Assembly: GCF_027111295.1 (NCBI RefSeq)
Contig: NZ_CP114287.1
Coordinates: 1,860,001-1,924,000, forward strand
DNA from: Flavobacterium gelatinilyticum
Lineage (GTDB): Bacteria > Bacteroidota > Bacteroidia > Flavobacteriales > Flavobacteriaceae
Direction: 5' to 3'
DNA length: 64,000 bases
Made by a program: the position numbers and the translations under genes. Under the pieces are notes generated by a model. It did no database searches and was not told where the DNA came from. It saw nothing but the letters and a program-made list of their open reading frames with translations. Shown here piece by piece: positions 1,556 through 6,935 of this stretch (within the stretch, counting starts at the first letter, position 1; each line of letters opens with the position of its first letter).

Positions 1556-1713
1556 ATTACTCAATATTGTAATAATGAACAATACTACGTAAAAAGGTAA
1601 TAATTGCGAATATGATTTAAAAATGTAATATTTACTTATATTACCAAAAAGTGTAATATTTTTAAATATTACCAAAAAACGTAATAATAAAAGTTATTCC
1701 TTATATTTGTAAT
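1556..1713. promoter_or_regulatory. Array of six ATTAC-N8-GTAAT palindromes at exact 28-bp spacing
   Basis: Six 18-bp sites of form ATTAC-N8-GTAAT start at 1556, 1584, 1612, 1640, 1668 and 1696. The right half GTAAT is perfect in all six. The left halves are ATTAC, ACTAC, ATGAT, ATTAC, ATTAC and ATTCC. The 10-bp linkers and 8-bp centres differ, so the spacing is kept while the sequence between drifts. The last site contains the likely -7 element TATATTTG (1702-1709) of the satD promoter. The array lies between the divergent HMG-CoA lyase and satD genes. It is most simply read as a cooperative operator. The protein that binds it is not known; the HTH-bearing SatD product just downstream is the obvious candidate. 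Confidence 0.75.
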
Positions 1714-1745
1714 ACAAAGTTTATTATTTTTAATTATATTTGATT

Positions 1746-2357
1746 ATGACTAGTGTAATTACAGGAGATATAATTGGCTCAAGACAGCATGAATCTGAAC
1801 ATTGGGTTGAAGATTTGAAACAAATCTTAGCACCGCTTGGGAAAACACCAAGTCAATGGGAAGTCTATCGCGGTGATGAATTTCAAATAGAAATTAAAAA
1901 TCCTGAAGAAGCTTTATTGACCGCTATTTTGCTTAAAGCACGTCTTCGAGCCATAAAATCAGATGCGCGAATGAGTATTGGCTTTGGAGATAAAACCCAC
2001 GATGCCGAAAAAATATCCGAAAGCAACGGATCTGCTTTTATACATTCGGGAGAACTTTTTGAAACTTTGAAAAAACAAAAAGTCACACTGGCTTTACGAA
2101 CGGATGAAACTGATATTGACGAAAGACTGAATTTAATGCTGCAACTGGCTTTGACGTTTATGGACAGCTGGCTGGTACAATCGGCAGAATTTGTGGCTCT
2201 GGCTATAGAAAACCCGACACTTTCTCAGGAAGAACTGGGACAAAAATTAGGCATTAATCAGGCTGCGGTGAGCCGAAGACAAAAACGCGCGCAGTTTGAT
2301 CTGGTTATGAATTTAGATCGTTATTTTAGAACTCAAATAAAACAACTTACCTTATGA
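1746..2357 (+). CDS. SatD family protein with C-terminal helix-turn-helix
   Basis: The opening residues MTSVITGDIIGSRQ and the following RGDEFQIE and MSIGFGDK segments match the SatD family, whose biochemical role is not established. Residues 159-182 (LSQEELGQKLGINQAAVSRRQKR) form a clear helix-turn-helix, so the protein probably binds DNA. The ATG at 1746 was chosen over a TTG two codons earlier because it gives the normal family start. Its stop overlaps the start of the next gene in an ATGA, so the two are translationally coupled. The gene sits directly behind a six-site palindrome array, which makes autoregulation likely. That link is inferred from position only. Confidence 0.8.
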   Translation: MTSVITGDIIGSRQHESEHWVEDLKQILAPLGKTPSQWEVYRGDEFQIEIKNPEEALLTAILLKARLRAIKSDARMSIGFGDKTHDAEKISESNGSAFIHSGELFETLKKQKVTLALRTDETDIDERLNLMLQLALTFMDSWLVQSAEFVALAIENPTLSQEELGQKLGINQAAVSRRQKRAQFDLVMNLDRYFRTQIKQLTL

Positions 2358-3070
2358 TTTTATTTATAAAACTGCTTCTGGCACATTTGTTAGGCGATTT
2401 TATCTGGCAGCCCAATTCGTGGGTAGCTCACAAAGAAGCAAATAAACATAAAAGTATTTATTTATATCTTCATATTTTACTTCACGGGGTTTTAGCTGCA
2501 GTTTTGGCGGGAGAAATCCGTTTTATTCCGTATGCCTTTTTAATTGCCGTCACACACGGTATTATTGATCTCATTAAACTGAATTTTCAGAAAAATAAAA
2601 CCAAACGCACCTGGTTTGTAGTCGACCAGATTGCACATCTTTTAATCTTAATTGGGGTTGTCCTTCTTTACAAAAACGATAACATCAGTTTTCTTTGGTT
2701 CGACAACCGATTCTGGATTTTGATTACCGGAATTATACTGGTTACAAAGCCGGCTTCAATTTTCATCAAAACCATTATTTCGATCTGGAGTCCGGAAAGC
2801 CCAAACAGCCATCAGGAAAATTCGCTCTCACATGCCGGAAATTATATCGGCATATTAGAGCGTCTCCTTACTGTGCTTTTTATTCTCACAGGACATTTTG
2901 AAGCTATCGGTCTTTTATTGGCAGCCAAATCTATTTTTAGGTTTGGAGATTTAAAAGAAGCCAAAGACCGAAAACTTACTGAATATGTAATGATTGGTAC
3001 TTTAATTAGTTTCGGAATTGCTATAATTACCGGACTAATTATGCAGACACTGCTGCTACAGCTGCTTTAA
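2354..3070 (+). CDS. DUF3307 family integral membrane protein
   Basis: This 238-residue protein starts [27 protein letters not shown], the typical DUF3307 opening (HLLGDF followed by a Trp/Asn-rich turn). It has about six hydrophobic segments, and the HGIIDLIKL and DQIAHLLI stretches are characteristic of the family. Function is unknown. It shares an ATGA overlap with satD and is surely cotranscribed; SatD/DUF3307 pairs recur in Bacteroidota, suggesting that the membrane protein and the cytosolic SatD partner work together. The last 15 bases overlap the 3' end of the convergent pyrD gene, leaving no room for a separate terminator. Confidence 0.8.
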
Positions 3071-4090
3071 AAGCTTTTTGTTAATTGCTTTGATTAATCC
3101 CGGTCCTTCGTAAATAAATCCGGTATATAACTGAATTAAACTTGCTCCTGCATTTAATTTTTCGATTGCATCGTCGGCAGAATGTATTCCTCCTACTCCA
3201 ATTATCGGGAAAGCTTTATTGCTTTTTTCCGAAAGAAAACGGATTACTTCTGTAGAACGTTTTGTTAATGGTATTCCGGATACCCCTCCTATTTCTGTCT
3301 GATTAGCAGATTGTAAACCATCTCTTGCAATGGTGGTATTCGTAGCAATTACACCTGCAATCTGAGTCGTTTTTACAATATCAATAATATCCAATAACTG
3401 CTCATCTGTTAAGTCCGGAGCAATCTTCAACAGAATTGGTTTTGTTTTTTGACCGCTTGCTTTTTCTTTTTCAATATTTCGGTTTTGCAAAGTCTGCAAT
3501 AAAGCCGTTAAAGGTTCTTTGTCCTGTAAAGCTCTCAAATTAGGTGTGTTTGGCGAACTTACATTGACTACGAAATAATCTACGTGATCAAACAAGGCAT
3601 CAAAACAAATAATGTAATCATCGACTGCATTTTCGTTTGGTGTCACTTTGTTTTTTCCGATGTTTCCTCCAATCAGAACGCCTTTATTTTTTTTCAAACG
3701 TTCTACAGCTTCGAGAACACCGCCGTTATTAAATCCCATTCGGTTAATAATCGCCTGATCTTCTTTTAACCGGAACAAACGTTTCTTTGGATTTCCTTCC
3801 TGTCCAACCGGAGTTACAGTTCCAATTTCGATAAAACCAAAACCAAAATCATCAAATTCCTTGTAAAGCTTGGCATCTTTATCAAAACCTGCTGCAAGTC
3901 CAACCGGATTTTTAAATTTAATTCCGAAAACTTCTCTTTCTAATCTACTGTCTTTTACCTCATAAACCGATCGTATTATCGCCGAAACTCCAGGTATTTT
4001 TGAAATGAATTTTACAAATGAAAAGGTAAAGTAATGCACTTCTTCGGGATCAAACCAAAAAAGTATCGGACGGATAATTAATTTGTACAT
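3056..4090 (-). CDS. pyrD: Dihydroorotate dehydrogenase (quinone), class 2
   Basis: PyrD oxidises dihydroorotate to orotate in pyrimidine synthesis and passes electrons to the quinone pool at the inner membrane. The protein has the class 2 layout. An N-terminal amphipathic membrane-binding extension of about 45 residues is followed by the FMN barrel with [18 protein letters not shown], the catalytic-serine region [25 protein letters not shown] and [11 protein letters not shown]. At 344 residues it is full length for class 2. It is convergent with and slightly overlaps the DUF3307 gene. It stands alone among unrelated neighbours, as pyrimidine genes often do in this group. Confidence 0.95.
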
Positions 4091-4493: not shown

Positions 4494-6935
4494 ATGAAAG
4501 TAATTAAAAATTCAATGTTTCAAAAGTTTTCTTTTACACTTTTGCTCTGTCTTTCATTAGGCTTAACCCTAAAGTCAAATGCTCAGGCAGACCCTCAACA
4601 AGTAACTAAAGAAACTTTTCATGGCAAAATAGCTTTGGATATCAGAGATTCTAAAAGCGACTGGACTCCTTACCTGCCCAAGAAAGCACCAAAAGGTTCT
4701 CCAAACATTTTATTCATTTTATATGATGACACCGGACTTGCTGCCTGGTCTCCGTATGGAGGTGCCATTAATATGCCTACTATGCAGAAACTGGCAGAAA
4801 ATGGTATTACATATTCACAGTGGCACACCACTGCTTTATGTTCGCCTACACGTTCCACTTTACTAACGGGGCGTAACCATCATCTTAATGGTATGGCCGC
4901 TATCACAGAAACTGCAGACGGTTATCCCGGAGCAAGCGGCAGAATTCCAAAACAAGCTGCTACAATTGGACAGATTCTACAGGAGAACGGCTACAGTACC
5001 TTCTGGATAGGAAAAAACCACAACGTTCCGGAACAGGATGTTGCTTCGGGAGGACCTCGTTCTACCTGGCCATTGCAAATGGGATTTGACCGATATTACG
5101 GATTTCTTGGCGGCGAAACCAATCAGTGGTATCCTGATTTAGTAGAAGACAACCATTTTATAGAACCGCCGGCAACTCCGGAAGAAGGTTACCATTTATC
5201 TAAAGATCTGGCCGATCATGCATTGGAATATATTAAAGACCAGCAGGCAACCAATCCTTCAAAACCCTGGTATATGTGGTATTGTCCCGGGGCTAATCAT
5301 GCTCCTCATCATGCTCCTGCTGAATATATTGCTAAATACAAAGGAAAATTTGACGAAGGTTATGATGCTTATCGTAAATGGGTTTTACCGCGTATGATTG
5401 CTAAAGGAATTTTACCGCAAGGAACAAAATTTGACAATTTTAATCCAATACCTCCCGGAATTGCAAATGAAGCTGACAGTGTACTGGACTGGAATAAATT
5501 AAAACCTGAAGAAAAAAAACTATTTTCAAGATTAGCTGAAGTCTATGCCGGTTTTTCTGAATACACCGATGTACAGGTTGGACGAATTATTGATTATTTG
5601 GAAAAAACAGGTCAACTGGAAAATACCGTTGTAATTTATGCTGCAGATAATGGTGCTTCAGGAGAAGGTTCTCCGTCCGGCTCTGTAAACGAAAATAAAT
5701 TCTTTAACGGATATCCGGATGAATTGGCTGAAAACCTTAAATATCTAGACAAATTAGGCGGGCCTGATACTTACGAACATTATCCTACCGGCTGGGCTGC
5801 TGCTTTTTCGACACCATTCAAAATGTTCAAAAGATATAGTCAGTATGCCGGAGGAACCTGCGATCCTTTAGTAATTTCATGGCCAAAAGGAATTAAAGCA
5901 AAAGGAGTTGTACGCGATCAGTTTCATCATTCAACAGACATTGTACCCACTATTTTGGATATCTGCGGTCTGGAAATGCCAAAAGTATACAACGGAGTAT
6001 CGCAATATCCGTTATCCGGAGTTTCTATGCGATATACTTTTGACGCTGCCCCAAATACAAAAACACAGAAACATATTCAATATTTTGCCATGCTAGGAAG
6101 CCGTGCTTTGTGGAAAGACGGCTGGAAAGCTGTAGCATTACACGCTCCTCTTGGAGGAAAAGGGAATTTTGATAAAGATACATGGGAATTGTACAACACA
6201 GATATTGACCGTTCTGAATCAAACAATTTAGCCAAAAAATATCCGGACAAATTAAAAGAATTAATCAATGACTGGAATCAGGAAGCAGCCAAAAATCTGG
6301 TACTTCCGTTAGACGACCGTTCTGCCATAGAAGTTTTAGGAACTGAAAGACCATCATCTGAAGAACCGCGAGATCAATATGTGTATTATCCGGGCACTTC
6401 ACCGGTACCTGAAGGTGTCGCTGTAAATGTTCGCGGCCGTTCGTATAAAATTGTAGCCGATGTCGATGTAAAAGATGCAAATGCATCGGGAGTTCTTTTT
6501 GCTCATGGCTCGCGTTTTGGAGGACACAGTTTATTTATAAAAGATAAAAAACTGCACTATGTCTACAACTTTTTAGGAATTGCACCTGAACAAAAATTCA
6601 CTTCAAATACTACCATAACACCGGGAAAACATGTTTTTGGAATGGAATTTAACCGGGAAAAAGCAGGTCCGAACGGTGAATCCATCGGAACCATGAAACT
6701 CTATATTGACGGAAAAGAAATCGCTTCCGGACCAATGAGAACTCAAACCGGAAAATTTACACTCTCAGGAGATGGTCTTTGTGTAGGTTTTGACAGCGGT
6801 GATGCTGTAAGTAAAGAATACAAAACACCAGGAACATTTAAAGGGGGCGAAATTTACGGTGTGGGTGTAAACGTTGGAAAAATCGAATACTCTGATTTAA
6901 ACAATGAAGCAAGAAGAGCTTTAGGCAGAGATTAA
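4494..6935 (+). CDS. Exported arylsulfatase (type I, formylglycine-dependent)
   Basis: Hydrolyses sulfate esters using a formylglycine made after translation from Cys116 in the motif C-S-P-T-R (residues 116-120), followed by STLLTGRN. Other S1 sulfatase landmarks are the metal-binding LYDDTG (78-79) and the AADNGASGEGS segment. A Sec signal peptide ends near residue 31 (LKSNA-QADP), so the enzyme is periplasmic or beyond. At 813 residues it is longer than short arylsulfatases; the last 180 residues or so look like a beta-sandwich domain, as in long arylsulfatases. It heads a same-strand cluster with a porin and a formylglycine-generating enzyme, which would activate it. The substrate cannot be read from the sequence. 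Confidence 0.93.
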   Translation: MKVIKNSMFQKFSFTLLLCLSLGLTLKSNAQADPQQVTKETFHGKIALDIRDSKSDWTPYLPKKAPKGSPNILFILYDDTGLAAWSPYGGAINMPTMQKLAENGITYSQWHTTALCSPTRSTLLTGRNHHLNGMAAITETADGYPGASGRIPKQAATIGQILQENGYSTFWIGKNHNVPEQDVASGGPRSTWPLQMGFDRYYGFLGGETNQWYPDLVEDNHFIEPPATPEEGYHLSKDLADHALEYIKDQQATNPSKPWYMWYCPGANHAPHHAPAEYIAKYKGKFDEGYDAYRKWVLPRMIAKGILPQGTKFDNFNPIPPGIANEADSVLDWNKLKPEEKKLFSRLAEVYAGFSEYTDVQVGRIIDYLEKTGQLENTVVIYAADNGASGEGSPSGSVNENKFFNGYPDELAENLKYLDKLGGPDTYEHYPTGWAAAFSTPFKMFKRYSQYAGGTCDPLVISWPKGIKAKGVVRDQFHHSTDIVPTILDICGLEMPKVYNGVSQYPLSGVSMRYTFDAAPNTKTQKHIQYFAMLGSRALWKDGWKAVALHAPLGGKGNFDKDTWELYNTDIDRSESNNLAKKYPDKLKELINDWNQEAAKNLVLPLDDRSAIEVLGTERPSSEEPRDQYVYYPGTSPVPEGVAVNVRGRSYKIVADVDVKDANASGVLFAHGSRFGGHSLFIKDKKLHYVYNFLGIAPEQKFTSNTTITPGKHVFGMEFNREKAGPNGESIGTMKLYIDGKEIASGPMRTQTGKFTLSGDGLCVGFDSGDAVSKEYKTPGTFKGGEIYGVGVNVGKIEYSDLNNEARRALGRD

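Follow-up and report, generated by a model that had tools for sequence, protein, structure and literature searches.

An array of inverted repeats at a conserved 28/29-bp step upstream of satD, a probable autoregulatory operator of the satD-DUF3307 operon

The window analysed here is a stretch of 64,000 nucleotides from Flavobacterium gelatinilyticum, and its satD-DUF3307 operon is preceded by an array of inverted repeats (dyads). The features are listed below, with positions counted from the first letter of the window.

1556..1713, + strand: candidate operator array of six dyads ATTAC-N8-GTAAT, at a step of exactly 28 bp (18-bp dyad plus 10-bp linker)
1556..1573, no strand: dyad 1, ATTAC/GTAAT, 0 mismatches
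1584..1601, no strand: dyad 2, ACTAC/GTAAT, 1 mismatch
1612..1629, no strand: dyad 3, ATGAT/GTAAT, 2 mismatches
1640..1657, no strand: dyad 4, ATTAC/GTAAT, 0 mismatches
1668..1685, no strand: dyad 5, ATTAC/GTAAT, 0 mismatches
1696..1713, no strand: dyad 6, ATTCC/GTAAT, 1 mismatch, with a -7-like TATATTTG (1702-1709) within it
1735..1742, + strand: second -7-like TATATTTG, 3 bp before the satD ATG (1746), a possible alternative promoter
1746..2357, + strand: satD (PF16264, E = 5.5e-8, and HTH matches), proposed repressor acting on the array
2354..3070, + strand: DUF3307 membrane protein gene (PF11750, E = 1.6e-28), overlapping satD by 4 bases, proposed target of the array

An earlier note on this DNA, made from the letters alone, had named the first gene downstream of the array as one for a SatD protein with a C-terminal HTH, and the PF16264 and HTH matches bear this out. 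The protein scored 33.1 bits against PF16264 (cut-off 29) over profile positions 4-199 of 211; we take this family to be that of the sat operon of Streptococcus mutans. Its layout comprises a predicted palm/cyclase-fold domain (approximately residues 1-118) and the C-terminal HTH, with the recognition helix at residues 172-181. For the N-terminus the SatD structure model (pLDDT 91.7) and its matches to known folds predict a GGDEF/class III cyclase/Cas10 palm fold of the order beta-alpha-beta-beta-alpha-beta; among the PDB sequence matches listed (E≤1), none fell on this domain apart from one weak row at 85-133, the others lying on the HTH. The partner protein, with about six hydrophobic segments, matched DUF3307 as its sole Pfam family above cut-off. 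No relatives of it were found in the PDB by sequence, and its structure model (pLDDT 47) was unusable. Four window proteins were scanned: HMGL-like, SatD, DUF3307, and DHO_dh. Both satD and DUF3307 were found in the same 68 of 150 genomes, and three of the 68 DUF3307 matches in the genus (G013, G015, and G109) contained one in-alignment stop codon. Searches of phages and viral contigs found no SatD, a tblastn search with the window's DUF3307 protein as query found none in phages, and PADLOC, which reports known defence families, detected neither gene. Among the open-access literature matches listed, there was nothing on a SatD operator, DNA binding by SatD, a DUF3307 partner, or a satD-DUF3307 module. 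No operator terms were found in PMC3434061.

The earlier note had described six 18-bp dyads in a fixed register, and six were found, starting at 1556, 1584, 1612, 1640, 1668, and 1696. All right halves read GTAAT (6/6, at 1569, 1597, 1625, 1653, 1681, and 1709), and the left halves of dyads 1-6 differ from ATTAC by 0, 1, 2, 0, 0, and 1 bases, both as claimed. The worry raised in the same place, that such a register might arise often in this AT-rich gap, was not borne out: the longest run of equally spaced GTAAT in the 298-bp gap upstream of satD was 6, and the maximum over 5000 dinucleotide-preserving shuffles of the gap was 3, reached in 3 shuffles. For any 5-mer, an equally spaced run of more than 4 occurred in 0 of 1000 shuffles of the gap. 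The 28-bp array was also called by Tandem Repeats Finder (69% matches). Chance, or a simple repeat, was ruled out by these shuffles together with the controls on other genes presented below.

Single dyads with at most two mismatches were not enriched in the window (60 vs. 52.8 expected), and the signal is therefore the fixed register, not the dyad. A count of sites per genome, as proposed in the earlier note, gave 21 exact dyads vs. 17 for a reversed control pattern, with 3 of the 21 inside the array. The array before satD was the sole place in the genome with an exact three-copy register. Allowing one mismatch, three further places carried a three-copy register (control pattern, one), and we judged these by eye to be chance. 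A SatD regulon was considered and rejected, since the genome held no second exact three-copy register and exact dyads occurred at approximately the control count. By eye, the array starts with a left half and finishes with a right half both in the window and in most of the relatives printed, and the unit is therefore the 5-8-5 dyad and not GTAAT-N10-ATTAC. The description of linkers and centres as unlike each other stood for the linkers, which have diverged, but not fully for the centres: in 170 units from relatives with the same word, bases other than A and T are very rare at the four innermost positions. Dyads 4 and 5 of the window have CAAAAA in common in their centres.

Comparison began close to the window, with the best 80 of 140 Flavobacterium loci (L005-L084). 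At least three GTAAT in an exact 28-bp run preceded satD in 75 of these 80, in line with the proposal that the spacing be sought in relatives. Among the loci that carry the array is L034, from a strain of Flavobacterium johnsoniae. The five others comprise one locus cut by a contig end (L079), two with two GTAAT (L069 and L072), and two with GTAAC at the same step (L082 and L084). Upstream of position 3001 in L082 and L084, many half-sites have changed from GTAAT to GTAAC (5/8 in L082, by eye), and R replaces Q172 in the SatD helix of L082. For the wider comparison the SatD frame was confirmed in all 273 loci L005-L277 by a profile built from 18 sequences. L129 and L268 had no usable start codon; the remainder plus the window made 272 entries, from which 182 representatives were retained (<90% identity, at least 160 bp upstream). 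Group A comprises 150 representatives of RGD type with a score >100, and group B comprises 32 of TITLGDEFQ type. PF16264 searches overlooked the window's own SatD, and tallies derived from PF16264 are therefore lower bounds. Besides more distant loci, the sampling took in seven plasmid loci. The residues D8 and D44 were invariant in 150/150 group A representatives, as were D10 and D53 in 32/32 of group B, and a DUF3307 relative lay downstream of satD in 150/150 group A and in 30/30 testable group B representatives.

A plain lag self-match gave 28 as the top lag in 113, 29 in 16, and 56 in 6 of the group A upstream regions (n = 150), and in group B (n = 32) it gave 29 in 24 and 28 in 3. The lag value was reached by at most 2 of 200 shuffles in 125/150 group A and 23/32 group B loci. 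We also scanned de novo for arrays of inverted 6-bp arms with periods of 20-37. The best period was 28 or 29 in 174 of 182 satD upstream regions (group A 145/150, group B 29/32) vs. 15 of 182 shuffles and 13 of 138 upstream regions of other genes from the same loci. A scan score of at least 36 was obtained for 146/182 satD upstream regions, all with period 28 or 29, vs. 0/182 shuffles and 2/138 other-gene regions, these two being from L225 and L274, where arrays lie between satD and DUF3307. Six of the 174 loci with period 28/29 scored below 29, approximately the value of the best shuffle (28.6). When loci were ordered by SatD identity, period 28/29 was found in 32/32 at >80% and in 26/29 at <25%. 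The commonest geometry in group A was period 28 with spacer 8 (93/150), and group B had mostly period 29 with other spacers. Most satD arrays consist of 3-6 dyads and are gap-free, and their half-site words differ among lineages (GTAAT, CTAAT, GGAAT, CCGAT, CAGAT, GCCAA, and others).

The same step was seen on plasmids. Each of two haloarchaeal plasmid loci carries two pairs of GTTCGCC-type dyads at a 29-bp step, and a Sphingomonas parapaucimobilis plasmid (L288) carries three dyads at a 28-bp step; 0/25 shuffles per locus reached the array score for L286, L287, and L288. At 28 bp, TTAGCC-N6-GGCTAA occurs three times in a Vibrio lentus plasmid locus, GTAACC-type dyads occur twice in one from Pseudoalteromonas, and two weak dyads occur in one from Salinivibrio. 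In Segatella (L271) the array is visible only when an ATG later than the annotated start is used. Loss of the spacing in relatives had been named in the earlier note as the outcome that would speak against the observation, and the opposite was seen. The register is kept from distant bacteria to haloarchaea while the half-site letters change, and the observation is thus confirmed and reaches well beyond the window.

Eight of the 182 loci had a best period other than 28/29 (L111, L144, L203, L207, L214, L225, L230, and L274). In L111 the array is displaced upstream, to about -290 to -200 (-288), additional sequence separating it from satD. Three dyads at a 27-bp step were seen in L203 and no more than a weak 28-bp pair in L144, and upstream of satD in L207 and L214 nothing convincing was found; immediately downstream of satD, L144, L203, L207, and L214 are all without an array. 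In the remaining three, of which L225 and L230 are one family, the array is absent before satD and two dyads lie between satD and DUF3307 instead, at 29 (L225), 29 (L230), and 28 bp (L274). The array has thus shifted to the DUF3307 gene in 3 of 7 inspected exceptions, which points to this membrane gene as a probable target in its own right. In the L274 locus, from Sphingomonas insulae (3671-3716 and 4572-6561), satD-DUF3307 with the array between the two genes adjoins a Pycsar locus of a cyclase, a cysteine-rich protein, and a Pycsar effector. Short partners of SatD were observed in L288 (3651-4067; 138 amino acids) and L207 (2104 onward; 104 amino acids, by eye), and both match only the C-terminal half of DUF3307, the site of its most conserved residues.

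Co-variation between half-site words and SatD was tested on 139 of the 150 group A loci; 11 were dropped for score, and the 32 loci of group B were left out. After control for N-terminal distance, loci with more dissimilar recognition helices also had more dissimilar words (partial r = 0.515, 0/999 permutations, n = 139), while N-terminal distance added nothing after control for the helix (0.03). The helix effect stayed under wider sampling at n = 100, 78, 53, and 24 (0/999 for each; 0.361 at n = 24), and since the Mantel permutations do not model the tree and related loci are not independent, kinship is an effect that these values reduce and do not remove. The strongest single SatD columns were A174, R177, Q172, A173, S160, R178, and I170. 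In the table for n = 100, R177 accompanied GT in 16/18, Q177 accompanied CT in 24/26, K177 accompanied GG or GC in 11/19, and E177 accompanied CC or CA in 9/16.

Three pairs of loci resemble natural swaps, although the members of these pairs differ at other SatD positions too: K177/R177 with GGAAT/GTAAT (L127/L118, N-terminal distance 0.40), R172/Q172 with GTAAC/GTAAT (L082/L226, 0.25), and A174/S174 with ACAAT/ACGAT (L248/L242, 0.25). We further compared 64 disjoint close pairs, leaving out pairs past a distance of 0.55. The word change was larger in the 16 pairs changed at 172, 174, or 177 than in the 48 unchanged pairs (p = 2.3e-6), the changed pairs being more distant overall (median N-terminal distance 0.41 vs. 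0.20). When only pairs with an N-terminal distance of at least 0.2 were used (15 vs. 27 pairs), the difference held (p = 4.5e-6). Because the half-site letters track residues 172, 174, and 177 and not the N-terminal domain, SatD very probably binds the array, and the comparison suggests SatD as its reader. The earlier note already held the idea of an operator recognised by the SatD HTH. The conserved register and the recognition-helix co-variation now lend it strong support, of a comparative kind.

We consider it probable, at about 0.82, that the array serves as an operator for autoregulation of satD-DUF3307 and that, once filled, it shuts the operon off. Comparison of the loci established what this reading builds on: the register and how deeply it is conserved, its link to satD/DUF3307, and the co-variation of half-site letters with the recognition helix. 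SatD would presumably bind as a dimer, a pair of its HTH domains reading each 18-bp dyad. Adjacent dimers, set at a fixed centre-to-centre step of 28 bp (29 bp in some lineages), may then aid each other's binding, so that occupation would be cooperative between neighbours. As 28 bp is about 2.67 helical turns and 29 bp about 2.76, neighbours would sit on different faces and their contacts would run round the DNA. The last dyad would cover the core promoter, the filled array would switch the operon off, and SatD and the DUF3307 membrane protein would both be kept low. The cyclase-fold N-terminal domain may sense or make a nucleotide that switches the repressor between active and inactive states.

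That the effect of SatD on the operon is repression we infer from the overlap of the last dyad with the -7 box, which the earlier note had pointed out and which holds in the window, where TATATTTG (1702-1709) lies inside dyad 6. At the corresponding spot inside the last dyad, TANNTTTG was found in 33/139 loci, and 33 occurrences of it were counted in the 139 loci at 40-42 bases past the start of the last dyad. A -7-like box close to the last dyad was present in just 85/139 loci. The second TATATTTG, before the satD ATG (1735-1742), recurs in Flavobacterium relatives, and a nearly leaderless transcript could start from it.

SatD might also bind the array and activate the operon, recruiting RNA polymerase from upstream sites. 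Most dyads do lie upstream of the -7 box, and inspection of the window by eye showed no clear -33 element 19-21 bp before TATATTTG, as activation would have it; we nevertheless hold it to be unlikely, as the last dyad lies over the -7 box in 33/139 loci and its end meets the start codon in both loci from haloarchaea, which are blocking positions. In the excerpted text of PMC11323703, satD of Streptococcus pyogenes is reported to be essential yet accessory, as would be expected if its loss released something harmful, which also speaks against activation, though the effect may lie at the protein level. A regulator other than SatD could read the array, with satD merely the regulated gene, given that dyads of such a size are common targets of HTH proteins and that binding by SatD is a prediction. 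The letters co-vary with SatD residues 172, 174, 177, 173, 178, and 170 but hardly with other parts of the protein, and the array stays beside satD/DUF3307 in unrelated genomes, both of which make this improbable.

A neutral tandem repeat, its step being the unit length of past duplications, deserves mention because the claim that the array is not a simple tandem duplication stood only in part. In the window the best adjacent pair matches at 23/28; adjacent units are at least 90% identical in 16/182 relatives, and spacing could persist through unit duplication without selection. As a general account it is very improbable: the linkers have diverged while arms and spacing are kept, the 28/29 step recurs with unrelated words in many lineages, and other upstream regions are without such a step. 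The earlier note had also entertained iterons for replication or partition. These, or some other array with a role in chromosome structure, share the look of fixed-step direct repeats, and some relatives are plasmid-borne, but we dismiss them almost entirely, as the window lies within a single 5.8-Mb contig, satD/DUF3307 and the array keep together across the 182 loci sampled (most contigs being unclassed as to chromosome or plasmid), the stretches of L271-L274 and L276 contain no annotated replication or partition gene, and the four scanned window proteins include no replication initiator.

The proposed autoregulatory operator has parallels in known systems. NrdR boxes come as pairs of palindromes in front of target operons, with a step that is conserved across phyla, and their repressor has a nucleotide domain; they differ in being two boxes, in serving a regulon of several operons, and in belonging to another protein family. 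Another parallel is hipBA, and the earlier note's remark that it knew of no such operator did not survive the comparison. The E. coli K-12 hipBA promoter (L298) contains four exact TATCC-N8-GGATA at -134, -106, -67, and -39 from the hipB ATG, at steps of 28, 39, and 28 bp, i.e. with the same 5-bp arms around 8 bp, several sites, and a 28-bp step within pairs as in the satD array. In both systems the first gene would encode an HTH repressor and the second its partner, as we propose for satD-DUF3307. The HipB consensus and cooperative binding with repression at hipBA are described in the excerpted texts of PMC3920265 and PMC3376134, and the former gives a bend of 70 degrees for HipB operator DNA, which the almost exclusively A/T central four bases of the satD dyads would fit. 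The shared dyad and within-pair step suggest that the array works like a toxin-antitoxin operator.

The differences from hipBA are also clear. At hipBA a 39-bp step separates one pair of sites from the other, whereas most satD arrays run without gaps. HipB, as portrayed in the excerpted sources, is a small dimeric HTH protein without a cyclase-fold domain, which SatD is predicted to have, and HipA is a kinase, whereas DUF3307 is a membrane protein. SatD scored 13.2 bits against the NCBIfam HipB model (cut-off 79) and matched PDB HipB at E = 0.12-0.19, a weak HTH kinship. Membership in a hipBA module was rejected, there being no HipA-like kinase and DUF3307 alone above the Pfam cut-off in the partner. 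For a toxin-antitoxin module of a more general kind the indications are indirect, namely the pairing of the two genes and the essentiality reported for the accessory satD of S. pyogenes.

The protein pair invites comparison with Panoptes. According to the excerpt of PMC12657218, OptS has a palm fold with two active-site Asp and is encoded in a two-gene operon with a membrane protein, and the OptS product restrains OptE. The satD operon likewise pairs a small protein, of modelled palm fold and with two Asp, with a membrane-protein gene. No HTH is mentioned for OptS in that excerpt (PMC12657218), whereas SatD has one; OptE is a two-helix membrane effector, unlike DUF3307 with its approximately six hydrophobic segments; and nucleotide synthesis by SatD would be hypothetical. 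An S-2TMbeta effector of the OptE type was rejected for the partner, which among Pfam models above cut-off matches DUF3307 only, no S-2TMbeta model being named.

A wider reading is tentative, and we would sooner expect it to fail than to hold. Under it, satD-DUF3307 would be an unrecognised guard or addiction module of bacteria and archaea, in which SatD, a palm-fold nucleotide enzyme or sensor with its own DNA-reading head, restrains a harmful membrane partner in two ways, by closing its promoter through the 28/29-bp array and by a nucleotide-based signal; were this signal lost or diverted, the partner would be freed in a Panoptes-like manner. Unlike in Panoptes, transcriptional control would be built into the same protein, SatD.

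With these results SatD, a family of unknown function, gains a candidate job, binding DNA at its own operon, and a partner in DUF3307. Changes at residues 172, 174, and 177 accompany changes of operator bases at a constant spacing, which amounts to a putative natural recognition code and makes the locus a good system for the joint change of operator and repressor. The 28-bp geometry common to hipBA suggests a shared packing rule for neighbouring HTH dimers on DNA. A cyclase-like domain joined to a DNA-binding head, beside a membrane protein, may open the way to a new module, present in bacteria and archaea, for signalling, addiction, or defence.
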